Source: Lepisosteus oculatus (Eukaryota; Chordata; Actinopteri; Semionotiformes; Lepisosteidae). From it: a DNA stretch of 64,000 bases. Position 1 is the first letter of the stretch. Every line of letters starts with the position of its first letter. The notes under the pieces were generated by a model. The model was not told where the DNA came from. It saw nothing but the letters and a program-made list of their open reading frames with translations, and ran no database searches. The stretch spans positions 1,796,501 to 1,860,500 of the forward strand of contig NC_090698.1 of assembly GCF_040954835.1 (NCBI RefSeq). The letters run 5' to 3'. Positions 19,254 to 53,100 of this stretch are shown here, in pieces. A program made the position numbers and the translations under genes.

Positions 19254-19438
19254 ATTGGGAACAAGCGCCTGAATGGAGAGGGGGATTCAACCCATCCGAC
19301 TTCTCTGCTCTCTGAAGGGGAACTGGAGGGATACAACGGTGCCGCCGGCTCATGATTAATAAACTGATTTTAAGTTGATCAGGGAAGGAAAAAAAAAACA
19401 CCAGGCAAGAGGCTTTTCAAAGTTCGAGGACGAAAAGC

Positions 19439-22159
19439 ATGGCAGCAGCTAGGAGGGACAGTCGGGCTGCGGGGGAAGGCACTGAGCTCCCCCCGGCGGA
19501 GACGAGGAGCTCCGAACCCGGCTCAGGACAGACGGAGGTGCAGCAGTGCTCAGAGCTGCCACGGGACAGTGGGAAAGCACAGCCGTCTTCATCCGGGACC
19601 GAAAGGCTCTTCGGCTCGCTGTGGAAGAGCAGGGGGCTGGGCAAAGTGATGAGTGGCAGGAAGAAGAGGGACAATCCCGTGGGGGCCGGGGAGGCAGGCG
19701 GAGGGGACCTGGACCGCGAGCAGGAGGCGGGAAGGCCTGCAGCTCAGTGCCAGCGCGCAGCAGCGGAGGAGTGCCTGCTGTCCCCAGGCCCTGCAGCACC
19801 GGGTCCCAGCGAGTTTGACAGCTCGATTCAAGAGGCAGAGGACAAGCACACCAAGAGGCAAGAGGCAGAGGAGGCTTCTGTGGAGCCCAAGCCGTTGAGC
19901 CCAGAGGAAGATGCCAAGCCGAAGAAGATGGAGAGATCCGGTGTCCGAGATTTCATCCGGAGACCCGTCTCCAAAATGTTATCGCACAAAAGCACAGACA
20001 AGAGGGATCAAGCAGTTGCCAAGGATGGTGGTGCTGGAGCCCAGGAAGATTCTGACAAGACGCGGTCAAGGTCTCTAGACCGGCTGGTGGACTCGGAAGT
20101 CTCTGCTGCCTGCACAGACCGGGCCGCTGGACCACACGCAGAAGGGGAAACGCCCAAGGCAGTTCCACACGGAACTGGGCACATGAGACGATGGCACTCC
20201 TTCAAGAAGCTGATGGTTCCGAAAACTCTCAAAAGGGCCACAGACAGTGGAGCAGAGCAGGACCCTGATGCAAAAACCTCGGATGTATCAGAAACACAAG
20301 ACAGGTCAGACCTTGCAGTGCAGAAGAGACGGAGGATGAAGAGATCATGGACGTTCCAAGGGCTCAAGAAAGATCAGTCTTTCTTCAGCAGCCACAACCA
20401 AAATGTGCTCAGCAAAGACGCAGCAGAAGGTCATACAGAGGCCTGTCAAAGCGAACCGGCAACATCTGGTGACCCCAGGGCTTTAAAAACTATGGGGGAA
20501 GAAATATGCCCTGAGGAAAATGATCCGGACCAAGCGGAAGAGAAGGGGACAGGCACACACAGCCACACGAAATCAATAGACCAGCAAGCCCATGAAGCCT
20601 GGGTATCATTTAAAAAACTAGTGATCCTGAAATCAAAGAGAGCCCAAGATGCCACAAATGAGGAAGGAGATGCAGTGACTCCTGCAACAGATGAGCGGGT
20701 TGGCCAAGATCTGAACAGGTCAGAAAGGCAGCCTTCAAAAAGGGCCGCTGCCTCTAGAGCTGCGTCCTTGAAAAAATTCATACTCCGCAAAGGGAAGAGC
20801 AAAAGCATGGATCTAGGGGACACTCCGGGGAGTCCGAAAGGAGAACAGGACAAGAGCATCAGCTTCACACCTGCAGAAGCTATAGATGAGCAAGGAATGC
20901 AAAACCGAAGCACCACAAGCAAAGCCAGCTCTCTAAGTCTAAGTTACGTGGACATGAAACCTACCCACTGCAGTACTGATCAGGAAGAGGATGTAGAATC
21001 GGCACCACGTGGAAGCACGTCTGAAAATCCAGTCTCCACAGACAGGGAAGATAGCCATGGAGAGGTTGTGACCAAGAAGACAGCTGCTGATGCAGAAGAC
21101 ACCACTCAAGAGCACGCACAGGACTATACAGACAGGTCACACACTCAAGACCCAAAACTAAAATCCAACACCACAGAACCAACCTTACACAGTGGATCTA
21201 AGGAGTCAATGAGAACAAACAATTCTGAAAGCAAAACCCCAGCAAGCCTTAAAGTGTTAAAACTGGCTTCAGCTCAGAACAGCTCAGAAAAGGAAGCTTG
21301 TGAAAGTCTGCAAGACACATTACCAGATGGCTCACAGGAAAGTGAGAGGGGGGGCATGGCAACTGAGACGACAGAAGTGAGAAGTTCTCATCAGGCAGGT
21401 AAAAGAACCGAAGAAAAGGCCGACGATTTTTCTGTGGACGACACAGACGATGCGACACTCGACCGGGCACCGGACACTGAGGGTGGACTCGACGATCTGG
21501 AATCTCTGGAAAGAGCTAAAACTGTTCCCCGAGGACCGCATCAAGCACAAGGAGAATCTGAGGATAGCAAAACATTTTCACGTACTGCTGCCAGCTCGAA
21601 CGAGGGCCTTTGCTCAGATGACACCACAGCAAAGACACAAATGAAGCTGGGAGGCCAAGTCCCTTCTCCTGCTTGCCCAGCTGTCCAAACCAGCAGTCCA
21701 GAAGCAGAACAAACGACACCTGCAGAGGAGGGGGACTCTGTAAAAACCACAGAAGAGGAGCAAACAGCTGGAGGGGCCTGCTGTTCTTCAGAGAGCCCTC
21801 AACCAGCCCGCTCTGTGCTTGAGGAGCCACAGATCACAGAGGGTCTAAATGACCAGAAGCTGTCAGGCGACCAAGATACCGGCTCCCGTGACACACTGCA
21901 GCACGGGGGTGAGGTCAACCGCAATGGAAATCCACTTCCTGGCCTCCGAGTGACCCAGCCTGACGTCACTGACCCACAGGAGGAGCAGAAAAGGATGTTT
22001 TACGAAGCAGCAGCTGCCATCGTCCAGACCGTGGTGAGCGCGGCCACCGAGCAGATCGTCAAGGAGCAGGACCTTCTGGACAATGGGCTTAAAGGCCCCT
22101 CCCCCAGCAATAATGACAGCTGCAGCTACCAGGATCTGGATCAGCAGCACTGCAGCTAA
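19439..22159 (+). CDS. A-kinase anchoring protein, AKAP5/AKAP12 type (906 aa, single coding exon)
   Basis: AKAPs tether protein kinase A, and in this branch often PKC, calcineurin and calmodulin, beneath the plasma membrane. The protein is acidic, Ser/Glu-rich and largely disordered. It carries basic-hydrophobic patches: SLWKSRGLGKVMSGRKKR (from about residue 60), RRWHSFKKLMVPKTLKR (about 250), AWVSFKKLVILKSKR (about 387) and ASLKKFILRKGKSKS (about 442). These resemble the WxSFKKLVTPKK membrane/calmodulin modules of AKAP12 and AKAP5. Near the C-terminus, AAAAIVQTVVSAATEQIV (residues 856-873) forms an amphipathic helix like the RII-binding helix of AKAP5. The start ATG has A at -3 and G at +4. 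One long coding exon and the C-terminal helix favour an AKAP5-like identity; the several FKKL modules are more AKAP12-like. No PxIxIT calcineurin site was seen. Confidence 0.82.
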   Translation: MAAARRDSRAAGEGTELPPAETRSSEPGSGQTEVQQCSELPRDSGKAQPSSSGTERLFGSLWKSRGLGKVMSGRKKRDNPVGAGEAGGGDLDREQEAGRPAAQCQRAAAEECLLSPGPAAPGPSEFDSSIQEAEDKHTKRQEAEEASVEPKPLSPEEDAKPKKMERSGVRDFIRRPVSKMLSHKSTDKRDQAVAKDGGAGAQEDSDKTRSRSLDRLVDSEVSAACTDRAAGPHAEGETPKAVPHGTGHMRRWHSFKKLMVPKTLKRATDSGAEQDPDAKTSDVSETQDRSDLAVQKRRRMKRSWTFQGLKKDQSFFSSHNQNVLSKDAAEGHTEACQSEPATSGDPRALKTMGEEICPEENDPDQAEEKGTGTHSHTKSIDQQAHEAWVSFKKLVILKSKRAQDATNEEGDAVTPATDERVGQDLNRSERQPSKRAAASRAASLKKFILRKGKSKSMDLGDTPGSPKGEQDKSISFTPAEAIDEQGMQNRSTTSKASSLSLSYVDMKPTHCSTDQEEDVESAPRGSTSENPVSTDREDSHGEVVTKKTAADAEDTTQEHAQDYTDRSHTQDPKLKSNTTEPTLHSGSKESMRTNNSESKTPASLKVLKLASAQNSSEKEACESLQDTLPDGSQESERGGMATETTEVRSSHQAGKRTEEKADDFSVDDTDDATLDRAPDTEGGLDDLESLERAKTVPRGPHQAQGESEDSKTFSRTAASSNEGLCSDDTTAKTQMKLGGQVPSPACPAVQTSSPEAEQTTPAEEGDSVKTTEEEQTAGGACCSSESPQPARSVLEEPQITEGLNDQKLSGDQDTGSRDTLQHGGEVNRNGNPLPGLRVTQPDVTDPQEEQKRMFYEAAAAIVQTVVSAATEQIVKEQDLLDNGLKGPSPSNNDSCSYQDLDQQHCS

Positions 22160-26103: not shown

Positions 26104-29100
26104 TTATTCCATCTTGGACATTTCAAATTTTGTGGTCATGTTTTCCTACAAAAAAGAAACATTAGAATAAAAATCAAATAACTGTATAATCAAATGTTCT
26201 GTGATACTGTATTAATTTATACATGATTAATTATTACTAATTTCCTTCTGACACAACCTAAAATTTACAGAACTGAGAGAATTACAGACATCTGCAAAGT
26301 TATCTGTGTTTTCAATTTTTTGTTAAGGATGAGTAATAGGTGGTAAAAATGTACACGACTCATCTTTCACAGAAATAGTCCAGGCAACAACGGGGATGTG
26401 AGACATCCAGGGAACTGAGAAATGAGGATCATTTTAAAGTGTTTTATGACCGAATGGGCCAGACACAGACACACAGTAACAATCCTTCCGGTGTAAAATT
26501 TGGATGCAGGTTAATGTTTAACCTGCATCCTCATTAAGAGTCAACACATGCAAATTTAATGAAGGCACCACTGCGGTGTTGTGTCTTCTTAACTCCCTCC
26601 CACTAAAACTTTTATCGTATTCACTGCTGTAGTCATTTTTATTTGGAACATCAATGCGGTCTTAGGATTAATAAATAATTTAATTAACAAAACGTTTTGT
26701 ATGTGGTCTGTGCCATAACACTGGGCAACAGAACAAGTAAAATAAGGAGCTGAATCTTTCCAGGGCAACAACATTTCTCTGGATAATACTCCATGAAGCT
26801 TGGACTTGGAGCTTGGAGCTCTGACACTAAGACTGATTGTACCGTCTTAATATACAGTAAAAACTGTTGGACAGAACCTTCATTCTCCTTCTACACTTGT
26901 TCACACGCCCTGGTCTCCAAATGAACATTGGCAATCATCATTTATATAATTGGTAGATAAGATTAATGAGAATTTAAATATATATATATGCAGAAGAATC
27001 AATAAAAAACACGCACACATTCATCACAATAATTTAATGTCCCGCTGTACTGTTAATCCTTCTAAGACCGAGACCCGTTCTACACGTGAATAGTGCCCCC
27101 TTGTGGACACGCGAGGCCTATAAAGAGGAACAAATCAGGTCTCTTACCTCATCTGAGTCCAGCAAGGGCGGTAGAGCTCTGCAAGACAAGGATCATTGTT
27201 TTATTTGAAAAGGGGGCAGGAACGTTGCAAAAAGCCAAGAAGTGAAAGATAACAGAAACCGCTCTGAACACGGGAAGCTCACTGTCTTGCTAGCTTTGCC
27301 TCGCACTACATTAAATGTTGCAAACTATTTACACATCAACGCCGACAGACCTTTGAGGGAAAAAATGAAAAAAAATTAACAGGGAAAGTCTCACTTCCAG
27401 CAGTCACTGGTTTGTGCAGATGTGCGCTAGTCCTGACAACAGAATACTGAATTGTAACCCAAACTCATTCACACTCCACTTTCCCCGCCCTGCGCCTTAC
27501 ACCATGAACCCCAGCACTAATTCTGCTTTGACCACTCTTCCTGACCGACGCTCAGCGCCGCCCTCCCTGCCGAGAGGGGCGAGCTGCTGCGAGCCCTGTA
27601 CTTACACATCTGCCATGGAGGAGGGAATGTTCTCCTCGACCCATTTCAAATCTTCATCCTGTCGGGGAAAAGAAAATAACTGGATCATTTCAGTTCCCTG
27701 ACTCCCCTCGCTTATCAGGCAGTGACACTGCTTGTTGACTCTTAGGCAAAAAATCCTCATATTATTCCAATTCAGTTTTTGAAACAACTGTTGGTTTGGC
27801 GGCTTGTGTTGTCTCAAGCTCCTGTTTAATTACGCTCTTCACCTGTTCTACAGGGTCTTTTAAAACCTGAACACAAACTTTTCACAAGTCCAGAGTCCAG
27901 TTGTAACCACTGCTTCATATTGCTGCCCAAGTTCTGCAGAATGTTGCTAAATAAAATGCACACTGTAAACAAGTTGTGACTCATCCATCTCGGTATTTCT
28001 GAAAGCACAAGGTTTAAAAAAGAAAGTGACTACAACCTTAATGATGAGTAAGCTTGCCCACTGCTTTACATAGTTCACAACAATACTGTGCAGGGTACAG
28101 CACCACTGTCCCCAGATCCCTTGTAGAAAAACTATTACAAAGCAGAGGCTAGCTCGTTTCCCGATTTCCATTTCTATAATGATACGGCATTAAAAAAATC
28201 CACGATTTGTAATGAAGTCACAGTTTATGTGAGCCATTCTTGGCCACGCCTGCGCATGCTGAGTCAAAGGTTGTGCATGATGTAGACACAGGCAGCACAG
28301 TGCGTGAATCCTGAGCTCTCTTTTCCACAAGAGACCTGACACGCGCACAAAGAGTCCGCTCACCACTTTGTTCGTCCTGGCCGTTCCGTTGGTCTCCGAT
28401 TTCATTCCTCTCATTTTCACACCCTCTGGAAAATAAGCAGGAGAAACAACTGCACGTGAATTAAAATTAAATTAAAGAAGGTAAGAAATTCACCACCTTA
28501 TACTGCTCCGCCCCACGCATTCCAACAGGAGAGTCAAAGAAGATCACTTCTGCAGTCCTGTTTTTTCATGGTTAGATTTTCAATTCAAACAGCCAAATCA
28601 AGATGGTTGCTCTGAAAAGCAGAGCCACTTTCAGCTGACGGGAGTCAAAATCCCTCCAGCACATGTGATGCAAAAAAAACCAACCACACCCCACAACAAC
28701 CCCCCCTCTTTGACACCCCTCTCAAGGCCACAGGAAATGGTTTGTCAGCTGTTTGGCCAAATCATGGAAAACTTTGCTGCTGACTAGGTTGGTTATCTAC
28801 TGAAGCAGCAGACATAACCCTGAGACAGAGCTCTTCTCTCCTGGAGGACAACACGATTCTTACCGAACGCTTCGTTCATCAGCTGCTCTTTCTCTTCTTC
28901 ACTCATCTCGTCAACCAGAGGGCTGAAGGCATATCTGAAAGCACAACAAACAATCTCTCAAACTTCAGAGAAACCATAGTGTGAGCCATCTTGGGGCTCT
29001 CGTCATAAATAAAATATATACCACGCTGCTGTAGAATTCTCAATTCTTCTCTGGTGTCCATCTTTAAGTGCTGATTGAGATGTCACTGAAAATGTGACAG

Positions 29101-32100
29101 TTAAAAAAAAACTCTGCTACCCTTTCTCTAATAAATGATATCCTATTGCTGATATTAAAAAAAAAAACACACTGTTAGTATGGGGTCTTTTTCTATGTGA
29201 AACTGGGAAGGAAAACAATGTTAATTTTTTTTCCCAATTCAAAGACAAAAAGCTTGCTCATATTAAAGGGTGTGGTTATAAGCCTTATTCTCCACCCCAC
29301 TCCCAACACCCTTCATTCCCAAACACACAGGCGTGGACGCTGTGCGAGTGTTGCGGCAGCACAGCCAGGAGAACGAAGCAGAACCAGTTCTCCCACTGGA
29401 GAGCGCTTTCCGCTTCCTTCCTCCCTCCCAGAACTCCAGCCCCCCACAGGAGCCGCGCGGGTGGAGCGGGAAAGCGCGAGCCCCCGACCCCGAGGTGGCC
29501 CGGCTCTGCTCACCTCTGGTTGTTGGCCGACGGCCTCCAGAGGAACATGATGACCAGCAGAACGATGGAGAAGAGGAACCTCCAGAAGGCGTCGTCAATC
29601 CACAGCTCCCCCCAGTCCTGCCCAGGGACACAGAGGAGTTACAGCCGAGCTCCAGCTGCGTGCGCTCAGTCACATCCAACACCCTCGCAACACGCCTGCC
29701 ACTCCAGGGCGCAGAGAGGGACGGGATTAGGAGGAGCGGACAAGAAATGAACCACTCATTCTTAAAGCAAATTCCAGATGTGGCACAAGGGTAACTAACC
29801 ACAACTACAAGCAAATGAAATATTCGGCCCTTACTCAAAGCCTGCGGGATTTCCAACAGAAGCCAAAAATTCGTAAGCAGGGCCATGATAACAAGAATCG
29901 CTTGTGTAAAAACCAAAACAAAATATCTACTGTCCTGGTAGCAATGATGGGATTCTACAGAAAGATCTCTGCCCTCACACTTATGCCTATGCCTTCACAA
30001 CCTCTGGGGAAATGCTCTCCAGTGGATATACATTCTCCAGGGTCATCCTGATTAATCTCATCACAGCGGAGACACTCTACAGAGCACTGGACTAAAACAG
30101 CCACCCATTCTTTAAAACAAACTCGTACTAATAGACTAAGTACTAAAAAGAGGATTTTTTTATCAGTCATCTCAGCAGTCTGAGTGATGGAGATAAGAGA
30201 GATAAAGGTCTTCGTAATATAGCCTCTGTCACTCACCGACTGGCACTGGGCGAATCTGAAGGTCTTTGTTGTCCAGATGATGAAAATGACAGAGGCTAGT
30301 GGGAAGAAAGATATGAAAAAGATTTGAGGATCATTCTTTCTAGAAATGAATCTGCACAATGGAGTATGGGCATCAAAATGAAAAACCATCATCAAGATAA
30401 AGATTTGTTCAGAGGTTTTGTCAGCACTCCCAGTGTCAAAGAGGTCAGTGAGATAGTCCCAAGACAAATCACGTTTCCTTGACTGATACGAGTTAAAGGA
30501 TGTTAATTCTACAGGTCAAATGATACGATAAGGTCCAGATTGTTTAGTTCAGACTTTATGGTTTAAAGTGACTTACACTTAGATCCCAAACCTAAGATAT
30601 ACAGTATGAGGCTCACGGGCCATGAGGGGAGAAGGATGCATTTTTATTGCAATAAACTGAAGCAAAGTGTTCTAGCCAATAATAGCATCTGTCACAATTG
30701 GTTTAATGTTCTAAATATTATAAATGATAAAAATGTGCATTTCTCTAAATTGCTTGTAAAAAGCAATAAACTGTATGCTTCAGCTTTAAAACACAAAAGA
30801 AGAATCGAGAGCATGTGGTTTAACTGGAGTGTGCAGTAAAACCTCGTGATCAAATCTGACGAGCCGGCAGTGCAGTGTGAAGAACAAAACAACCTCGGCA
30901 CCCAGAAGCCTCACCGATGACGGCGAATATCAAGGTGTTGGTGAAATGGCGATAGAGGGAGAGCTTCACCACGTTCCTCCGCAGTCGCAGCAGCTTCATG
31001 GTCTGGGCCAGGCTGATGAAGATGTGTCTCTTTGTCAAGGAGCCTCCCGAGGCCACCAGTAAAGACACCCCCTCTCACCCTGCTGCTGAGAACTGCCACA
31101 GCCATGCCCATCGGGAGAGCACTCGTGTAGCAGGACCAAGAACAGAGCACCTACCCACTGCGGCAAAAACAGTGCTGAACTACTAGAGACCAAGGAGATC
31201 GGGAGAAGTACTCCCCATAATAGTCGATTATATTATCCAAAATATAATAGGTAATTATTCACATACCTGGCTGACAAGTTTATCCAAAGCAATTTGCATT
31301 TACAACCATTTACTTAGCTGGATGTTTCAACGGAACAGTTTGGATGAAGAATCTTGTGCAAGGGTACAACAGTGTCTTTTTTGGCTTTGACAGTGTCTCA
31401 CCTGGGACTTGAACCAACAACCAGTCCAAAACTCTAATGACAGCTCCACATATGACTTGCTAAATATACAGGTGTATATACAGCAGGCAGAAAAGCAGAA
31501 CCTTTTTTGCATGCATACATGTTCTCTTCTAGAGAACTTTGGATGTTCCTGAAAGATCTAAGCAACAAACTAAAAAGACAGCAGCTGGGGATGAAAATCA
31601 GATTCCCAGGGCACAGCAGTCCAGCCCGCTTCCAGATTCACCATCTGTAGGCTCCTGGACACACTGCACTCAAAAAGCCCAAAATCTGTACTTTATTTAT
31701 TTAAAATACGTACACTTTTAAAAATGCTATTTCAAACCCCTGCCTGTCTGGTCAAAACAAGAAAACAAACCAGAAATCTGCAGCAGCTGGTTGCTTCACA
31801 TGCAAACACTCACAGCTTATATGATCCCGTGGTGATCAAAGAATTCTGCTCTGCTGCACTCCTCAACCTCCCAGCAACACTCCTTTACGGCCCATCAGCC
31901 ATTTTTTCTGAGCTTTGACTCACATTAGCTGAAAGACTGTTAAGCCACACTTTAATATCAGAATAGTCTGAGGTGCACGGGGGAAAGGACAGGAGTGAGA
32001 GGGGGCAGGAATCAATACATAAGGACCCATATACATCAGCAGCAAGTTAGTGCAGGGCAGAGGCAATAAGAAAAAATGAGAGATGCAAGACAGGATATCC

Positions 32101-35100
32101 ACCAGCAGAGGGCAGAGTCGAGCACAGCCAAGGGAATGGCAGCCAACAGCACCAGATCATCCTGAGCCTGAAGAGGACAGAGATAGAGACAGACAGATAG
32201 AGAGGAAGACAGGACCGTCACACAGTAACTATAATAGTGTGCAATTTTATCATGCACACATGCTTATTAAATATATTTTGTACAAATTTCCATTTGGGAA
32301 AAAATTTGAGACAAATTAATTTCAAACTCCAGTTGTCATGCACATCGACAATGGATGCTCCAGTTCTGGCTCTCGATCAAACAGTGGGCTCACCCCAGAC
32401 CACACCTCTTGCCAACACATCTTGGATGTGCCTCGCAGTCTTTCTGACATGACTAAATGACCTGGATTCAACCCCTGTGTAATTAAAATGTAAGCAAGAG
32501 CAAACAGTGGCTCTCAATGAAAATTACTTGATTGCTCCCATCTGTCAGATTTCCTTACAGTACCGAAGAAAGCCTGTCGCAGAAAGCATGGATTCAAATG
32601 TCCTGATCCTAACACAACAGGACACAAAAGAGACAGACCTACTGATAATCCATTACAATCATGGTGTTCTATATTGCTCTGTTTATCATCTACAGTATCT
32701 TTTGCAAATCAAACTCATGTTATCTTCTGCAGTTGGCGAGTTCTGACGCAGCAAAACACTTCCAGTTCAGTGTTCTTCAGTGTCACACAGAGAGCCCGAC
32801 ACGTTGCTTTTGTTCATCTGCCTTGCAGTGCCTGCATAAGACAGAGCTAAAGCTTCCAAGTCAAAGCAAAAAAAGAGAGGGAAACCATTCAGCCCATCTA
32901 GTGTGTGTTGGGTTTTAGAAGTTACCTCACCCAGCATATTGTCAAGGTAACCTTCTGCCCATTTTAAGCTAAAAAAAAAAGTTGTGAATCACCTCCGTAC
33001 CATTCATGCATGAACAGCAGAACCAGCTCGAAGTGCATGCCAGCTGCTGCTGCTCCACATAGTGATCTGGGCCTGATGATCCTGCAACTTGTCCTGACCA
33101 ACACTATTGCTGAAACCCACAGTCTTGAGCCAGCCACTGACAGCATGGTCACTCATTAGTTAGAAAACACTGGCTTTTACCTCATTAAGACCAGGAGCCT
33201 TGAACCACCAACTTTCATCAAGTTTTTGCTAATATAAGAACTACCAATAAACAACCAAAGTGCAAATACTCCTGATAATGACATGTGCATGAGCCTGTGG
33301 CATTAGAATAATGCACAGTGTAATAACACCATACAGCACTACTGCTGATTTGTCTTATCTTCTGAATGGGCTGAGACCCAGATACTGTGTTACCAAAAGG
33401 ATATCCACCACACAATACAGGAGTCAGTAACGGCCAGCACTATGTCACACAGAAGCCTGCTTGTCCCATCTTGATCCTGCAGAAAGGACAATTTATCAGA
33501 ATGGGAGCACAGGGTAGCAGCATGGACACAGAAAAACTCTTCCCCCTGTAAATTCACAGGCCTGCAGGAGGAAGTCTGAGGCACTAAAAAAAAAAAAACA
33601 GCACCGTCAGAGATCCGCTTAATTTTGTTATTGACACTGTAATTAAACATGAAAGTTCCAGCCCCATATGTACAAACATATTCTAGTCTAAGGCAAATAT
33701 CACTCCAGATACTTCCTGGTCAGCTCCAAAATTCCTGCTAACAAGTACCGTTTCATAGATCTCCAGACATAATCACTGCAAAAAAAAAAAAGAGGGGGTT
33801 TAAATGGCTACAGGGAGTGGGGTTTCTGACTCACCGAGTTGACCCGAAGGATGCCCTCCACGATGGAGAAGATGAGGTAGAGCAGCCCCACGCCCACCAC
33901 CCTGTGCAGCAGAGCCCCCAGCCGCGGCCTGCAGGGAGAAGCACTTTGTAGCAGGTTTTGCAGAAGGACATTAAAAGAGAACAGGTCTGTCCTCTTAATG
34001 GTCTTCCGAGCAGATCTGAGAAAGGCCCCACCCTCCAATAGAACATCACATTCTTAAATCGCCCGAATTCACTAGGGCAGGGGTTAGCCCCACACTCATA
34101 CTGGATTTCAGTCCAGCTGAGCTTCATCACCTAACCGAAGCCTGTAACTGAACTAATAAGCTGCTTGACATCTGCAAGTACCCTTTCAACTCAAAAGTCG
34201 GGGATTTGATTTGAATTAGAAAATGCCATCGTGAAAAGGCTGCCTCCAGCAGACTGAAGACCTAAACTGTGAGTAAGTCCATTACAAATTAAACGGTGTA
34301 ACTGACCACCTGGCTGGAACAAAACCTGACAGGTGGGGGGAGGGCCTGGGACTGGGACTATGCCCTTAGTGAAAAACGAAAGCAACAGGACATCACTTCA
34401 AGAAATTATAGTATGCAACTGCTTATGAATTTTAATGTTACTTTTTGCCACACATGAGCACTGTCCTTGTCCACCAAAGCTCAATTGTTTGAGCTTCTTC
34501 CGTTATTCAGCCACGGGCAAAGACACTCACTTGACAATTCCATATCCGAGGCTGGCGATGATGACCAGGACACGAGCAAGGGTCCGCTTCACAGCCGAGA
34601 GGACCTCGGCGAACACCACCGCCCCCTGAACTACAGGGAGAAGCAGATGGTAAGAAGAGCGAGCCAGGAACGCAGCAGGGCCACAGCCCGGCAGATCTTA
34701 CAGGTCACGGTAAGCCTCCCACTATCTAGAGAAAGGAGAAGTTGAAGCCCTTTCTACCTGACTAATAAAGCAATTCAATATGTGAACTGGATCATTAAGA
34801 GCACAAAAAACAGGAATCTCCCAGCCCTCCCAGACTGGAAACGGGCCCCCCCATAAAATCTTTCAAGCAATGGCTGCCACGTCCTGGTCTCAGAGGGCCG
34901 GCGGGTCCTCTGGTTGTTTCATTTCTCGTGAAAGCAGCAGCACCTAAAGAGCTGGGAGATGTTAAACTCAATGAGTCTGTATTTAGCTGAGGTAGGTTAG
35001 GAGCAGAGCAGGAATGAAAACCTGCAGGTGCACAAGCGCTCTAGGAACAGGATTAAACCACCCCAACTTTAAGCGTCTGAAATTCCAGAGACGGTTAAAG

Positions 35101-38100
35101 AAGGTTTTTGGTATCTTTCTCAAAAAAACCTGTTCATCACTTTCACAACACGCCTCGCAGGTGTTTCCTGTTCAAGGACAGGACAGGTGTGTCACGGCAA
35201 TTGTTGGCTTTGCCTACACCGATTTAACATTGTGCTGAACACAAAGGTGCTGTCTTGTCCTGCCCTGGAGCTATCCAATCACAGCACGCGATGATGAGGA
35301 CTGCACAGCACTGTGACATCGTGAAGAGAGCAAACTGGGGCGAGGAGACCAGCAGCAAAGGTACCCGAACGAGTTTAACTGCTTCAGCCCTCACATGTCC
35401 CATCAAGAGATCTACTAGAAAAAATGGCAAGCACTTCTACAATAGCACTTTATGTAGCACGAAAGCACTGTCACATCCCCTGTAGATTTTATGTTAAAAC
35501 TGTGAACCCAAGCATCATCATCACAAGTCCACCCCTGGACATTCTCAGCAGCCCACCCTGTATCACACAGACCTGTCCAGACCAAGTGCCCCGCGGCTGC
35601 ACACCTGAGAGGCCGTCGTATCGGATGCTCTGGAACTCGGCGTAGTAGACGGCCTTCTCCAGCATTCCCAGGAAGATGACCCCGCCGATCCAGAACTGGA
35701 TCCGCAGCAGGTCCCTCCAGTAACAGGCAGACAGCCCGAGCCACAGCACGCCGAACAGCACGTAGATGATGCACATCACCATGTAGAACTGCACCAGAGA
35801 GGAGACGGCATTCACATCCGCGCCTGCTCAGCGAGACCGCGACTTCCTGCAACACAGAACTGGTCCACTGGACCACTGCAACTAATCCAATCATCATAAT
35901 ATACAATCTCCCATTGCGCCCATTTCAGGTTATTACACAAATGAGTTACAAAGATACTCAGGTTCTGTTGATTTCAAAATAAAGGGACACAGATTTATTT
36001 TAACAGAGTCAAATTATTGTATTTTATCAGCAAAAAGTAGAAAGCACTGGCCGTCACGATGAAACACAGTAATTCAGTAAAAGACGGGGAGAAAAGAGTG
36101 GGGGGAGGTATAATTGTATAAAACTGTAAAAAAGCACAACAAAACAAAAAACTCAATTTAAATTAAGCAGATTTTTTTGTCTGAAAGAAAAGTCCTCCAG
36201 ACCAAGTGTCTTTGAAACTGCCTTTAACTTGATCTCATTCTGCAGTCTGTACAAGTGCAGTAACACAACTCTTTTTTTCTCTTCCTTCCTTGTGTCTCTT
36301 TCCCTCAGACATCTCCTGCTCCGAGACCCACCTCCAACCTGCACTACCTTCTGCAGATTCCAAACCTACCTGCTTGATGGCGGATTCGCCATCTGCACAG
36401 ACTCCACCATTTGCCACGGGCAGGTGGAATAAAAGCTTTTATTTGCGTTCAGGTCTAAGGCTTCAAAAGAGAAGGGGCACTGTCCCGGGACACGAGAGGA
36501 ACACAGGAGTGGCGCTGGACTTACAATCATGAGAGGCCATTCGGAAGCAGAGATGTACTCGTGTGGCCCTTTCATCTGGACCTCCACTGCGGGAAACACA
36601 GTGAGGACAGAGTCAGGTCAAGGTGCAGGGCTCCTGGCCGCCGCTCATACAAACAAGGACATCGCAGATGTTAGGCAAAAGAGAAGGCTGCCATTAAACG
36701 GAGGCCCACGTCTTAAAATTCACACACTAAAAAACGTATGACATTACGATGTTCTTCTGTTGCCAAGTTGCGTAACCATCGTATTTACAGTGGGAGCTCT
36801 AGGGCTGCAGGCACTTAAAGGTCAGGTCAGGCTCTTACACTGCAGGCTCCAGGTGCTGCCCTCCTCTCCTGGCTTCTTGGCGGGGCTGATCTGGACGATG
36901 AACATGTACGGACCGTCCTCCCACGCTTTGGCCACAGCGTTCAGTGGCTGGGAACGAAACACAGGAAGAAAAAAGGAATGCGGCTGAAATCCCAAGCGCT
37001 AAACTGAGAGCTGCACGTGCCGGAGTCCACTCCAAACATACACAGAGCCATCCGAGCAACGAAAAAAGGAAGCCCTAGCTGAAAAAACATTGATAAGGTA
37101 GCATTAAAAGTTCTCCCAAAATAGCTATTCAAGACGTTTTTGTATTTTCCTTCCCATGACGCAATGATTCCTGTGCTGTGCGGACGGAATGAGGATCCCT
37201 GCCAACGTCTCCCGAATTGTCACTCTACGAATCGATGTCAAGAAACACAAAGGTCCCATTTGTGAATCAACGCGTTTGTTTTAACATTTCAACGCTGGGC
37301 TAAGTGGCTACGTGTAATAAGGAGCATGTCAGGCAGAGAGCCCCTCTGTCCTTGCTGAATGCTGTGCTCGTGCTACGAGCGGAGAAGACGGCAGACCACT
37401 CACCACATCCGAGACTGCTGAGGTGGTCTTCACCTGACCTTTAACCTCTCCCTCCTCCTTGACTGAGGGCTTTTTTGTTGTAAGGGCTTCACCCTGCAGA
37501 AATGAAAGAACATGCTAAAACTGGATCATTTATCAGTTCAATTCAATTTTTATATAGCGCCTTTCACAACCAGGTTGCCCCAAGGCGCTTCACAAAGCAA
37601 GTGACCATACATGTTGTGAATACAAAACAGAAAAGACCAGAAGACAACGGAGGGGAGGAACCCAAAACGCCTTAGTAAGGAGAAAAAAAACCTCTAGGGG
37701 TCCAAGGTCAAGGTCATCTTGCTGCCCAACCCCTTTGGGCATGCTTACATCATACAATTAAAAAAGGAATAAATGAATAAGGATTCATATCCCCAAGTTC
37801 TGTGGACCTGTGGAGATTTTGCGAAGGCCAGATATAAACCTGGTTGATCTCTCCTGAACCAGTTCCACTGTGTAAATTTAACGTTAGCTTGACTCAAGCA
37901 ATGAAAGGCCACAGGGTGGAGACCATACCTTCTCAGACACAGCACTTCGCTTCCTCTTCCCCTGGTTGCCTGTGCTGGTCTGCAAGACATTTTGCAAGAG
38001 ATTACTTCAGAAACAGAAACGATCTAATTGAACGTCTCGGAATTTCTCGCACCCTGAGCAGGACAGATTCATGCCCCCTTCATCTAAACCCTCCTAGACT

Positions 38101-41100
38101 GGACTCTGGGGAACCCCTACTGCACGTGAGGCCATTCCTTTATTTTGGGAAGATCTAAACATGTACATTTTAAACAGGGTTTTCCAGAATGGACTGACTG
38201 TTATTTTGTCATATTCAGAGATGGTCCAAGTGGTGCCAGCCTCACTCCCGATGAGCACTCCTATCACACACGGGCTCCTCGGCCAGGAGTGGTCTGGGAT
38301 GCCACACTCTCCAGCTCTGAATCCACGAGTATTTCATCAGTGTGTGTGTCAGGGAGGGCACCTTAAGGACAACGTGTGAAGCAATAATTAACATAGCTTT
38401 TATTTAGAATTCTTTCTTTAACCAGGGATGTCACACAGAAACAGAACCTCATTCTCAGAAGACAGAGAAGGGAGAAAAAAATCAATCTAAAATAAAAACG
38501 GGATGAGGCAGTGTTAAGACGATCCAGGGACAACTGTGTCCGGAGAGATGACGTATCCAGAGTCACGATGGACACTACAGAAGAACTGTTTCTGGAAAAC
38601 AGTAGCAGAATTCTAAAAGGGCTGGCACATGTCAAAATTATTTTTACATGGGGAAAGGAGAGCCCTGTATGCACAAAGGACAGTGACATGAAAGTGCACT
38701 GTGACAAAAGAATGCAGTCCCACAGCTCCCCTTGGTTTGCAGCACTGTGCAAGTCAACGTCAGGCAACTGAAAAAAAAGACAAGCTGAACTCGTTCTCTC
38801 TCACCTCTTCCACCTCTGGTTTCCTCAGCTGCTTCGGCGTATCGAAGTGCCTCACGGTCAGCTTCAGGGACAACCAGCACAAGGGAAAAGGCAGAGTTGA
38901 AAAACACATCCTGCATTTTATTGCTTTATCCAGCCCTGCTTATGCAATAAAAAGAAACAGAGCAGCTCATACTTGAGCTCATTAAGGCAGCAGTTTTGCG
39001 AGCTGTTAGAACCGTGTGGCCGGGAGCCGAGATACTAGACAGGAGGAGGAGGAGGAGGAGGAAGGACAGCACGTCGCACCTCGTTCCGCGCGGTGTGCAG
39101 CACGCACTCCTGTGTGTCGTAGGAGTGGAAGACATAGAAGCCGCCGCCCCCATCGGGAACCTCGCTGTCCGACTTGAAGTACGACCCCACCTGCGAGTTC
39201 TGGGGGAGCAGCCAAACCACAAACAGCAGTAAGAAACCGTGAGCCCCGAGTGTCAGCTCAGCGCGCCGCTCGGGTGGACATCCGCAGCAGTTCGCACACA
39301 CCCCTCTGAATGGTACGGCCCAACTTAAAACAATTAAAAGCATGAAACCACTTTGCCAGTTTCCTGAAGAGGAACGAATTCATGGTTTATCCGGATCTTA
39401 TTATTCCTCTCTCTACCACAGTCACATCACATGCTTTTCTTCACAAACATTGACCTTTTGTTTTATTTGTACAACATTAAGCTGTTAAACTTACAACATC
39501 CATATTTTATTGCTCTCTGACACCTCCTAAAAGTAAAACGATGTTGATTTATCCACTGCAAAAAATTATATTTCACACACACAACAGGCCAAAGTACAAG
39601 AGTGCAGCAGACTGTAATATTTTGGGGTTGATGACAGAGCCTATCCTGTTGAGCCTGAAACAATTTGTTCTGTTTACGCAATTCTCCGTGACATCCTCAT
39701 CGCTACAATCTATCATTCCCAGCATGCACACAGAAACAGCACGCTCCAAATGAACACCTTCCAGAGAGGTCAGGGACTTCAAATCCATCAAGGAACTTAC
39801 ATCCAGAGCAAACACCTCATCGTAGCAGCGGGAGCTGCGCAGGTACCACGAGATGGTGAAGTTCACAGCAGGGTTGCAGTTCTCCGCCAGCCCTGCAGAA
39901 ACAAGCAGCACATGTGTCTCAGGGCTCCCAGCTGGAAACCTGTACAGACACCACGTGAGGCTCGATATTCTTCTACAGCAGAATGAAAACAGGCCAATCA
40001 TAAGACCATCTATAGCAGGCGGAGCCGGGCCTTGAGAGCCCCAGACCCTTCTGGGTTCAGTGCACTCACGAGCTCCGGTGCTGTGCTGATCTGGTCACCT
40101 TGCTCAGGTCTTGAACCAAGTGCGAAGAGAACAGCACTGCAAAGCCCACAGCCCGGGCTCTCAGGACGCGGGGCTGCACGACCCTGCTTGGGACCCTCAG
40201 AGCCACAAGGCTAAGCACACATCAACAGAACAGCACCCCAGCGATCCAGCGCCGCAGCAGAACTGATACTTACATTGCAGGTATACTATGGAGTTGTTAA
40301 ACAGTGTCTTTTTGAAAATGAATTTGTCCTGCTGATTAATGGAATTCTGAAAGAGACAAAAGTTGAAAGAAACTTAGGTTCTGCGATATTCTAGCCAGAA
40401 ACATGTTTATCCTGTTCTGACAAAACCCTAAAATGCACTACAGCACACACTGAAACATCACACTTTATCCATGAGCTCCTTTATTGTATTGACAATTTGG
40501 CTAAACGGAGATAAATAGGTAACGCATGACACTTATTAATAAGCGGTCATTTGAAAGATCATAATGCTCATGGACATAAAATGATCTCGACTAATGAGAT
40601 AGTGGTTGTGTTTTTGACACAACCATCCAGGTGGGGCTGCACACTGGTGGTGGTGGAGGGGATCCCCGTTACCTGTAAAGCGCTTTGAGTGGAGTGTCCA
40701 GAAAAGCACTATATAAATGTAAGCAATTATTATTATTAGACAACTGAGTCGTCCCGATTAAAAGGGGCAGGGTGAGGGTGACCGGGTTTTGTGAAGTTCA
40801 GAAAGCTGAACAATTGTTCTCTGTACTGACAAGTGAAAACAAACAACAACAAAAAAATTGATTTTTTCAGTTGTAGTTGTATATTATTTTGCATGATAAG
40901 TCATGTCCGTGACCTATACCTCATGCTGGAGGGCCCCAGTCAAGCACGGTTTAGGAATAGCCATTAAATAATCGATTTCTAAAGGTCTGGAACACCTAGA
41001 CTGTGGCCAATTAAATAGTTGGTTATTTTAGGGATCTTTTTTATCACAATTCAGAATTTCCTTCAGTCCAGGAGTTCCCCTCACTGCAACTTTACTTAGA

Positions 41101-42101
41101 CTCACTGCTTAACTCCTTAAATAAGTTATCCTAATCTTTAAATAACAAGTGACTTAGAGAGACCAATCAGAATACCTGGACTGGAGCTCCCCAGGATGAC
41201 TGTAACCACAGACCAGTACTGCTCTAAAACTGAGAGCACACCTCAGCCATAAAACAATGTCACTCTGCTTTTGAGGTTAGGGGCTAAACAGTTTTAAACC
41301 ACAACAGCAAAAACCCAGGACTGGCTCACATTACAGAATTACTTTACTGTTATGTGGGCATCTTTCACCTTTTAATTGTTCAACTCTAATAAAATTTTCA
41401 ACAAGGAAGCGTAACTTCTGCAGTTGCACGCAGTCGGGTTAACGTCTTTAGCTTAGGAGAAACATTTGAACAGTTCTAATAACAATCTTGTGAGTTACAG
41501 TAGGCATGTGTTACAATGAAGCGTGTCTTTTTCAGTACCAGAGCTAAAAACACCCGGCCAAAGGCGACTGGCAGAATGAGGACCTCATTCCTCGAGGGTA
41601 TTAAAATGAAATTTGAGTAACTGGTTTGCAAATATCTAGAAATAATACGCGCTGCTGGCGTTGAAAAAGGGTTCGTGTGAGCGAACAAGGAAATGGGTCT
41701 GAGCGAACCGCGGCGTGCTGTCGCGTTTACTAAGGAATTTACCGATTGTCCTGCAGTTTCTGGTAGAAATAAATTAAGACCATTGTAAAAAAATAAAAAT
41801 ACAAGCCCCTGCGGGCCAGCCAGGGAAAACGTCTACAGAGAGACGAAATCCCCTGTCAACACAGCACAACTTCAAGACCCGCAGAACAAGCCTGACATCA
41901 CAATAAAGACAGTCTTCTCCCTGGCCGCTCGCACTGCGCAGACACAGGGGAAGCGAAGCGACTTACGCTGTCCACGTTCACGATCCACTTTCCCGGCTCC
42001 GACACCGCATGTAGAGGCTGTGCAAGGTGCAGGAGGAGATATACTTGTAACAATTTCTTTAAGCCCCTGGAAGGCAGCGCCGTGGCTCTGAAAGCCGCCA
42101 T
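26104..42101 (-). CDS. tmem87a: TMEM87 Golgi seven-transmembrane protein (588 aa, 21 coding exons)
   Basis: Golgi membrane protein with a lumenal GOLD-like domain and seven helices; TMEM87A has been linked to cation conductance, pH control and retrograde traffic. Exons, 5' to 3' on the - strand: 41967-42101, 40274-40346, 39801-39892, 39080-39199, 38805-38861, 37929-37979, 37404-37493, 36839-36947, 36525-36586, 35605-35788, 34531-34630, 33835-33928, 32099-32167 (or 33405-33476), 30915-31023, 30237-30295, 29514-29617, 28864-28934, 28364-28425, 27606-27658, 27148-27178 and 26104-26145. Phases agree throughout. A signal peptide ([18 protein letters not shown]) precedes the lumenal domain (residues about 32-260); helices follow from [17 protein letters not shown] (264) to [14 protein letters not shown] (about 480). 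The cytosolic tail has [13 protein letters not shown] and ends in SKME. Exons 5-7 are poorly conserved. The tail resembles my recollection of TMEM87A, but TMEM87B is not excluded. Confidence 0.93.
31024..32098 (-). other. AT-AC minor-spliceosome (U12-type) intron of TMEM87
   Basis: Read on the - strand, the intron starts ATATCCTGTC and ends GACAAAGAGACAC before ATCTTCATC. TCCTTGAC, a U12 branch-site match, lies at 31034-31041; its A is 11 bases from the last intron base, the spacing typical of this class. The alternative donor at 33404 (ATATCCTTTT) fits the consensus even better. A GT-AG reading fails: joining at CTG/GTGG creates a stop or shifts frame. Confidence 0.85.
31255..31450 (-). mobile_element. 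Decayed SINE/LINE fragments
   Basis: On the - strand there is a B-box-like GGTTCAAGTCCC, and at about 31268 a TTATCCAAAGCAATTTGCAT block common at fish retroelement ends. The copies are too short to classify. Confidence 0.4.
32099..32167 (-). CDS. TMEM87 exon 13b (canonical fifth-helix exon)
   Basis: This 69-base phase-0 exon follows a long pyrimidine tract ending CCTCTTCAG and ends TGGTGG before ATATCCTGTC. Its peptide [17 protein letters not shown] matches the expected TMEM87 sequence and continues into [12 protein letters not shown] of the next exon. There is no usable GT donor giving the right frame; only the AT-AC reading restores WWIFISL. Confidence 0.8.
33405..33476 (-). CDS. TMEM87 alternative exon 13a
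   Basis: This 72-base phase-0 exon follows a U2-type acceptor (TTTCTGCAG) and ends TGGTGG before ATATCCTTTT. It encodes [17 protein letters not shown], alignable with [17 protein letters not shown] of exon 13b at 32099-32167. Inclusion gives a 589-residue protein with a changed fifth membrane helix (an added Asp and Cys, loss of the Pro). It is less like the human sequence as I remember it, so it is probably the duplicated, diverged copy. It has no stop codon or frame shift. Confidence 0.65.
37535..37745 (-). mobile_element. Retroelement 3' fragment
   Basis: The stretch TTTTTATATAGCGCCTTTCA, then GTTGCCCCAAGGCGCTTCAC, is the reverse of a widespread fish element tail. It lies in a TMEM87 intron, between exons 37404-37493 and 37929-37979. 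Confidence 0.6.
39040..39062. repeat. (AGG)n short microsatellite
   Basis: AGG repeats lie on the + strand about 16 bases downstream of the donor of TMEM87 exon 39080-39199, so the transcript carries a pyrimidine-rich (CCT)n run there. Confidence 0.8.
40625..40738 (+). mobile_element. 5S-derived SINE, 3' end only
   Basis: It matches the tail of the element at 54591-55101 (GGTGGTGGAGGGGATCCCC, GCGCTTTGAGTGGAGTGTCC, then CACTATATAAATGTAAGCAA and ATT repeats). It sits in TMEM87 intron 1, antisense to the gene. Confidence 0.85.
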
Positions 42102-50173: not shown

Positions 50174-53100
50174 ATGTTTCTTGCTAAAAGGCTGATTGGT
50201 GGCCTCATAGATGTCGTGGGGTAAGAAGCGCCTTTCACACCATCTAGTTTTTCAGGGGCTCGTTCAAATACCAACTGCAGCATCCTGAAACTGAGGCTCG
50301 CAGCTACGGGCACCTTAACGTGTAATTGTGAGCTGTGTTGACACAGTCTGATCACAGCTCTGCTTTCCCCTGGGGCTCCCAGGTGCCTCAGCCAGTGAAG
50401 CTGCTCGCGTAAGGGGGCAGATTCACCCCTGTGTTGGCACGCAGCACCAGAGTCGGAACATTGACACTCTCTCGAAGTGGCGAGTACAGCAGAGGCTGGG
50501 TCAGGCTAGAGTAGGCCAGGACCTAGAGTAGGCCAGGAGCTGGTGGTGGTGAAGTCTGTGACCAGCCATTTCATTCCAGCACATGGCACTCATGGATTCA
50601 ATTCCACATTGAGAGTCTATTAAAAAGGTAAATAATAGGTCATTTAAAGTTTATTAAAAAAATAAATGTAACAGAAAAAAAATCTCAAACTTTTTTTTTC
50701 TTTCAAGATTCAGTAAAAATACAATTTTTGAGAGTAAGAACTTCTGTCCTCTCAAGAGATGACATGCAGTAGGGTGTTCTAAAGCAAGAATAAAGAACTC
50801 ATTTGTATTTGTTTCATTTTTTTACAGGAACATTGACCCCAACCAGTTCCTGCCCTCAGATCCGGTGAGTGAGAGGCAGATACTTTGCGTACTTTATTTA
50901 AATGATCGTTATGAGACCTTCAGAAGGAATAACTTCTGGGGATAGTTTAGGAGCGCGTTTGAATTGCGGACAGAAAGGGCGTGGCATATTGGCTGAGGTT
51001 CGAGCAGGTCGGTTGAGTTGGTGCTGGCGAGGTGTGCCGTCTGACCCTGACCCTGACCCTGACCCTGACCCTGACCCTGACCCTGACCCTGACCCTGACC
51101 CTGACCCTGACCCTGACCCCGTCTCTCTTGCTCTCTGTGCGCAGCCGCCCCCCCGCCGGCCCATGGCGTACGCCGAGCAGAATGAGAGTGATGAGGAGCG
51201 CCAGTTCAGGAAGGTCTTCCAGCAGCTCGCCGGAGATGTAAGGGCTCCAGCTCTATCTCTTCCACACCACTCATGATTTTCTCTTGCCTGTGGCTCTCCA
51301 GCAGTCCGCATGTCTTAACTGATTTGTTCATCTACATAACTAATGAGGCGAAACAGTATACACGTTTGTGGTTGTATTGAAATTTTGGAATGTGAGCAGA
51401 ATGCTTGAATATTGCCACTGCAGGCCAACGGCCAAGGAAAACAAATGTTTATACAGTATGTCCCATGAAACAGCCTCATGCGGCAACCCCCAGGCAAACA
51501 TGGTCAAAGAACTGCAAGCCATTTCTTTATAAATGTGTAGATAACATACACATGGACTGCACTGGTCCTGGAAGGCTGATTTCCTCGGTCACTTCTAAGC
51601 GCAGCCTCCCAAAGAACGGGGAAAGGCTGTTAAATAGATTTCATGAAGCCAGTAGTGAGCTGCAGTAGGTCATTAAGAGCTGAGATGGAACAAAAACCTG
51701 GAAGCCTAGGATTGTCTATCCCTGCTATAGGTATAGACTTATATTGACGCTTCTATCTCATACCGTTACAGGATTGTGAACCTTTCAAGAAATTACAGAA
51801 TTTATCCTTACTTGCCTAATGAACCCAGTTGCTGATTGCAGAATATGACTGTTGATTATGGATAATCCTGGAGAAGAGACTTGCAGTGGAGGTACCAAGG
51901 CTGACCAGCCGCTGGTATAGACATACATACAGCAGAATAAGTAGTTTTATGGCAGGAGTGAAGGAGAGAACGTACTCAAAGTGTAATCGCACTGCTCTGC
52001 TAAAACCTTTAGCTTGTTGGATACAATCAGGAGTTACAAAATATGTATGTTCTGGACATACCTGTAGATTTACTCAAAGAATCCAGAAGTGTTGTCTACT
52101 ATTACAAGATTTCTAGCCAATTTTTATATCAAGGAGCAAAATCAGTTCAGCTTGTTCAGTTTGTGGAGTCTTTTATTACTAAAATACTAAAAAACTCCAG
52201 CTCCCAGGTCACTTCATCAGAAACAACTGCAAATGAGCTGTTGCTGTACTACATCTTGGCCAGTTCCTTATAGTCTGCCCACCTGCTGGTGAACAGTGCA
52301 GCAGGGTTCCACTGCAGTGTGGTACAGCTGCTCCTAGGAACTGCTGAGCTACCCCGTCCTGTTTTGGCTGAGCCTTCAGCTTCCGGAGCTTCCTGACTCA
52401 TTTCATGGGAGTGAGTAAGGGGATAGACATTTGTGCATGTGCTTCTCCTTCGGAGAGAAGGGGAGGGGTGGGGTGGTGACTCAAGTAGGGTGTGAGTAAG
52501 CACCCTTTACAATCCAGTGGCACTCCATTACACAACATGCTTTGCAGAAACCGGTCTCTCATAATTATGGCCTTTTCTCCTCTAGGCTCCTGGGGCTTGA
52601 GTGCAGTAGGTGTGGATGATTAGATTTGTGGAGTGTCTTTATTTTCTTTGTATGGCTCCTTTTCATTTTTACAGTGTGTTAGCAACACCTGGTGGCATCC
52701 GATTATGCAACTCATTTTTGAAGAAGTTTGGCGAAATGCACTTTCTCATGTTGCGGAACTTCTTTTTGAAATTGAGGTCAACGATTCTGTCTACTGCAGC
52801 CTTTCATCCAAAAGCCGTTAATGGATCTTTCATCCTTTGAGTTATGAAATGGCTTACAGCTAGAAGACAAATATGTTTCATTTACTAAGCCAATAACAGT
52901 TTTATGGAATTATAATAAGGAAAGTGCCAATTCAAGCATGCCGAGCTGTTGTATGATACAAATTCTCTTCTTATTCAAGTTTACTGCATAGGAGATCTTG
53001 TTTTCTCTATTTATTCACAGGTTTCAATATTCTAAAAGTATTTGAAAGTTTTAGCTGTTTTGAACCAGATCTGTTCTTTCTTTCTAAATGTAGCTGGCTC

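Follow-up and report, generated by a model that had tools for sequence, protein, structure and literature searches.

A 64,000-nucleotide (nt) stretch of the Lepisosteus oculatus genome (assembly GCF_040954835.1, contig NC_090698.1, positions 1,796,501 to 1,860,500; hereafter the window) contains the gene TMEM87A on its minus strand and, within it, two tandem copies of one exon, 13a and 13b, which are most probably rendered mutually exclusive by an alternation of intron classes. We assign this reading a probability of roughly 0.93. An intron of the U2 class would lead into either copy, and an intron of the U12 class, AT-AC subtype, would lead out of either copy to one common AC acceptor. Joining 13a to 13b would then pair a U12 donor with a U2 acceptor, and skipping both copies would pair a U2 donor with a U12 acceptor; as the wrong joins require mixed splice sites, exactly one copy would be included. 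The observation behind this idea, made earlier from the letters of the window (the original prediction below), was itself confirmed, and its interpretation is supported by the comparisons that follow. The splice sites, reading frames, homology of the two exons and recurrence of the design in a TMEM87B-like paralogue were established directly; transcripts and their tissue dependence are known from mouse, through the work of others. Both forms are presumably used in this fish as well.

Splice sites and intron classes at the duplicated exon

The original prediction had placed two tandem exons at 33405-33476 (13a, 72 nt) and 32099-32167 (13b, 69 nt), each with an AG acceptor upstream and with the end TGGTGG/ATATCCT; recomputation of the coordinates and motifs returned the same exons, and the exon model has the same acceptors and ends. 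Upstream of them exon 12 (33835-33928), which encodes the fourth transmembrane helix (TM4), ends TCG/GTGAGT with a U2 donor (GTGAGTCAG). Both alternative exons encode the start of TM5. The U2 acceptor of 13a is CTTTCTGCAG and its U12 AT-AC donor ATATCCTTT; the corresponding sites of 13b are CCTCTTCAG and ATATCCTGT. The pyrimidine share at positions -20 to -4 is 65% before 13a and 88% before 13b. The common U12 acceptor (31024-31041), predicted to end in AC with a branch site close by, does so: its branch site is TCCTTGAC, and 11 nt separate the branch A from the junction. Exon 14 (30915-31023; the rest of TM5 and the start of TM6) begins at 31023, position 31024 being the final intron base, and carries the U2 donor GTGAGG.

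U12 introns have recognised consensus motifs, among them an AC end preceded, at a distance of about 10-15 nt, by a TCCTTRAC branch site. U12 donors were scored by their mismatches to RTATCCTTT, and donors of the AT-AC subtype by closeness to ATATCCTT. The donor of 13a has 0 mismatches in nine positions and that of 13b has 1; the other 19 of the 21 donors in the gene begin with GT and have at least 3. Among the 21 acceptors only that of exon 14 ends in AC, and only there is a perfect TCCTTRAC found; a version with one mismatch precedes two other acceptors, at one with the A 31 nt away and at the other without a branch A. Copies of the heptamer ATATCCT number 9 on both strands of the window (5.6 expected), so that the motif alone is not rare; what matters is the placement at both exon ends, together with a matching branch site and an AC end.

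With these assignments the only class-compatible routes are 12-13a-14 and 12-13b-14, and both wrong joins cross intron classes; the incompatibility argued for in the original prediction is borne out at each of the junctions, and the TMEM87B-like gene of this genome has a pair built in the same way. The two exons are homologous (10 of the final 17 residues identical) and occupy the same place in the protein. Both are in phase 0 and encode 24 (13a) and 23 (13b) residues; as neither 72 nor 69 nt shifts the frame, transcripts with both exons or with neither would, but for the class barrier, still encode in-frame proteins. Exclusivity through frameshift-induced decay was accordingly rejected, the exon lengths being divisible by three in both genes. 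Steric blocking, or too short an intron, was likewise rejected: the copies are 1237 nt apart in TMEM87A (32168-33404) and 357 nt apart in the TMEM87B-like gene, and the former spacing is far beyond the 50 base pairs (bp) that passages of PMC5740500 give as the limit for steric interference.

The coding part of the gene extends over 26104-42101 of the minus strand. It was modelled as 12 exons, then 13a or 13b, then 8 exons, that is, as 20 constant exons and one of two alternatives, with clean open frames of 589 (13a form) and 588 (13b form) amino acids (aa). A seven-helix GOST domain and a TMEM87A-like tail identify the product as TMEM87A of the GOST family. The 13a form matched two TMEM87A chains, 8hsi (586.9 bits) and 8ctj (586.8 bits), the C-terminal tail included, and on the transmembrane region the Pfam profile GOST_TM (PF06814) scored 277.8 bits with the 13a form and 276.6 bits with the 13b form, both covering profile positions 5-246 of 246. 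From exons 12 and 14-16 by themselves the gene could not be assigned to TMEM87A or TMEM87B, as residues matching human TMEM87A there number 89 of 121 in the window gene, 88 in a gene on C17 and 84 in one on C8; it is because of the C-terminal tail that we call it TMEM87A rather than TMEM87B.

Paralogous genes and the age of the exon pair

A protein search of the same genome gave 15 matches with E values of 10 or less; 14 candidates were scored, and two further TMEM87 genes emerged. It also gave a weak match on C12 (E 0.2). We refer to the window gene as A, to the gene on C17 (L017), whose tail we take to be TMEM87B-like, as B, and to the third gene, on C8 (L018), as C. Gene B has its own 13a (L017 6012-6083) and 13b (L017 6441-6512), both 72 bp long and both followed by ATATCCTTTT, with a common acceptor that has TCCTTGAC, the same 11-nt distance between branch A and junction, and a terminal AC; exon order and splice classes are as in A. 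Gene C has a single 13a-like exon (L018 5042-5113), followed by ATATCCTTTC, and its exon 14 is preceded by TCCTGAAC, a branch site with 1 mismatch, and an AC end, so that the AT-AC intron is retained at the same place. All five alternative-type exons of the three genes thus have AT-type U12 donors. A 13b profile run between exons 12 and 14 of C found no 13b-like exon: its best match was the known 13a-like exon (45.3), and the next three listed scored at most 3.0, under the shuffled median of 10.7. We therefore assign gene C a single exon at this place; the second form was either lost or never gained.

Comparisons of protein used the last 17 residues, comparisons of DNA the corresponding 51 sites, and neutral expectations came from simulation at matched DNA divergence. 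A13a and A13b share 10 of 17 residues where 4.2 would be expected without selection; 0 simulations reached the observed 10, and 7 of these 10 residues are written in different codons. Between A and B, 13b is identical at 14 of 17 residues (8.0 expected; the observed 14 was again reached in 0 simulations), and by this measure 13b is under strong constraint. DNA identities per 51 sites are 32 for A13a/C13a, 30 for B13b/C13a, 28 for both A13a/B13a and A13a/B13b, 27 for A13a/A13b, 23 for B13a/C13a and 22 for B13a/B13b.

The five exons were placed in five alternative trees over the 51 sites. The best groups like exons with like, and a tree in which A and B duplicated the exon separately is 7.9 log-units worse. 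One old duplication is likely but not proved. That the two pairs arose independently seems rather unlikely, and the evidence on it is mixed. The approximately unbiased (AU) test rejects the separate-duplication tree (p 0.047) and two of the three tests do not (Kishino-Hasegawa, 0.058; Shimodaira-Hasegawa, 0.063). The A13a protein is closer to A13b (10/17) than to B13a (6/17), and the DNA identities are ambiguous, A13a being equally close to B13b and B13a, and C13a closer to B13b than to B13a. On the other side, A13a resembles C13a (32) and B13a (28) at least slightly more than copies within a gene resemble each other (27 and 22), and exon order and splice classes are identical in both genes. 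It should be noted that the other three trees lie within 0.54 of the best, and that one of them places A13a among the 13b exons. We further believe that the human TMEM87B annotation contains a 13a-like helix, which is a lead and not a test.

Published precedents and competing explanations

The phenomenon as such is already known for the TMEM87 family in mouse: the use of the lock in TMEM87, put forward in the original prediction as its own inference, turned out to have been published (PMC6717393, PMC8329584). In passages of Olthof 2019 (PMC6717393), exon 11 of mouse Tmem87b is described as an alternative to a cryptic exon, 11a, which lies within the minor intron, on the basis of RNA sequencing and reverse transcription PCR (RT-PCR); 0 reads join exon 11 to 11a, RT-PCR with AvaI agrees, and the 11a form predominates in cortex. 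The same passages list Tmem87a as one of ten genes in which the upstream exon is skipped. A 2021 review (PMC8329584) places TMEM87a/b beside MAPK8/9 and explains the competition. As far as these passages go, the mouse genes (Tmem87b, and Tmem87a) and the fish pair agree in family, in the minor intron and in having two mutually exclusive exons; in Tmem87b a U2 3' site lies inside the U12 intron, a U12 5' site also follows 11a, and both exons are 72 bp, as in the fish TMEM87B-like gene. We equate 11/11a with 13a/13b by order only. The mouse papers, unlike the present analysis of fish sequence anatomy, do not in these passages describe the exons as homologous variants of TM5. The present analysis adds the genes of this fish, evidence, itself mixed, that there was a single old duplication, the position of the exons at lipid contacts of TM5 and the motif TGCATG upstream of 13b; in the passages of the literature covered no fish TMEM87 exons and no lipid contacts of alternative exons are described, and the main text of PMC9741552 mentions neither TMEM87 nor U12. 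The lock published in mouse is also encoded in this fish, in TMEM87A and the TMEM87B-like gene, and is therefore probably old and worth keeping. What remains of interest is its conservation, the third paralogue with one exon and the possible effect of the 13a helix.

Exons 6a/6b of MAPK8/MAPK9 (JNK) are likewise described as an interlocked U2/U12 design in passages of PMC8329584. As a control, the same genome was searched with a human JNK peptide. Three JNK-like genes were found with two versions of the alternative exon each, all six versions being followed by GTATCCTT donors; a TCCTTAAC branch site precedes the next exon in one of the three under a strict pattern. Read from the donors and the branch site, these genes agree with a GT-subtype version of the lock, although this is not a full test. 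The U12 donors are thus of GT type in all six JNK-like exons, in contrast to the AT type in TMEM87. Among human clusters of mutually exclusive exons, five cases (0.79% of 629) are attributed to U2/U12 incompatibility in PMC5740500, whose passages name the published U12 pattern; the rule is the same.

Several points weigh against mutual exclusion by intron class with both exons in use. In L. oculatus the switch is predicted from sequence anatomy, and passages of PMC6717393 indicate that alternative splicing events at minor introns generally seem unconserved between mouse and human. The 13a donor has cryptic GT sites of U2-like type less than or equal to 20 nt away, the best with 2 mismatches in six positions. 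Moreover, 13a is poorly conserved between genes (A/B 6/17, A/C 7/17, B/C 3/17), without excess identity over the neutral simulation (p 0.24, 0.39 and 0.58, respectively), and B13a/B13b is borderline (5/17, p 0.053); 13a may be under weaker constraint or have a role specific to a lineage.

Another explanation is that 13a is a relic no longer included, the fish gene making only the 13b form, like the solved human structures. A 13b-type exon is indeed found in all three TMEM87A chains that were aligned (of four found), and conservation between A and B is far higher for 13b than for 13a. However, the U12 donor of 13a is perfect, its U2 acceptor is good and its frame is open, its identity with 13b is well above that expected without selection, the third paralogue retains a 13a-like exon only, and mouse Tmem87b uses both its exons according to passages of PMC6717393; we consider this explanation very improbable. 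It is very improbable, in our view, that exclusivity comes from regulators or RNA structure, the splice classes being incidental. The choice between tissues in mouse requires some regulator, to judge from passages of PMC8329584, and TGCATG occurs upstream of 13b at -89 and -175 in A and at -97/-101 in B, but both wrong joins are already forbidden by class incompatibility, and a regulator would account for the choice and not for the exclusion.

Candidate motifs, the lipid site and other features of the window

Motifs were counted in eight introns or intron pieces with six patterns, TGCATG being examined after it had been noticed. Between 13a and 13b of A it occurs three times (at -843, -175 and -89 relative to the start of 13b; 1.08 expected), a count reached in a fraction of 0.10 of resampled sequences, and in the corresponding stretch of B as two overlapping copies (L017 6340; 0.07 expected, fraction 0.003). 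Two further copies lie between 13b and 14 in A; none was found in the other two stretches of B, before 13a in A, or in C. Within 200 nt upstream of the 21 acceptors of A, TGCATG is present before 13b and absent at the other 20. A PTB-type pattern was seen three times between 13a and 13b in A (1.2 expected, fraction 0.13), and motifs of NOVA, MBNL and QKI were not clearly enriched in the eight pieces (no fraction below 0.10). The downstream Tmem87b exon is favoured in mouse cortex (passages of PMC6717393), which does not fit a neuronal factor that simply represses 13b. In passages of the 2021 review (PMC8329584) the tissue regulator is called yet to be characterized, and among the matches listed in a literature search on TMEM87 with RBFOX or PTBP1 no title was about TMEM87. 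We regard TGCATG upstream of 13b as a candidate site for this regulator.

The prediction that both exons encode the fifth membrane helix was borne out by alignment to TMEM87A chains, in which 13b corresponds to A355-W377 of human numbering and spans D371, C375 and W376. These three residues belong to TM5 and contact bound phosphatidylethanolamine in human TMEM87A, according to passages of PMC11239671. The 13a exon retains equivalents of D371, W376 and W377, and replaces C375 by Val, the helix proline P366 by Val and F364 by Asp. The swap would thereby alter the luminal half of TM5, and the two forms may differ in lipid holding or gating; the aligned solved chains have the 13b-type helix, whereas the 13a form differs from it at or close to the place where the lipid is bound. 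The status of TMEM87A as a channel may be disputed, as hinted by the title of PMC10378246. A more far-reaching proposal, which we put forward tentatively and think unlikely to hold as a whole, is that the pair is older than the split of A and B and exchanges the luminal half of TM5, where the lipid is contacted, with the result that phosphatidylethanolamine holding or gating differs in this Golgi channel-like protein, and that RBFOX-type TGCATG upstream of 13b aids the tissue choice in both genes.

Elsewhere in the window, an open frame on the plus strand (57391-57771) holds an exon for a calpain EF-hand, with a Pfam match below the cut-off; among Protein Data Bank matches a mu-like calpain was best, followed by the small subunit, and a calpain gene therefore adjoins TMEM87A. 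The specific calpain neighbour that had been expected was not proved as synteny support, since calpain-3 ranked 10th of 20. A plus-strand open frame of 926 aa (19379-22159) has repeated basic and aromatic stretches and no Pfam match; it presumably resembles an A-kinase anchor protein. The first 2308 nt (plus strand) consist of a long GA-rich minisatellite with fitted units of 21, 32 and 53 bases, and GC skew is 0.58 in the first 4 kb. Two full-length matches to 5S ribosomal RNA on the plus strand (54585-54703, 41.5 bits; 55497-55613, 41.3 bits; gathering score 38) are perhaps diverged copies or 5S-derived elements. Finally, a perfect CTGACC repeat of 13 copies (51041-51119) lies within an open frame, in which it would read as an Asp-Pro run.

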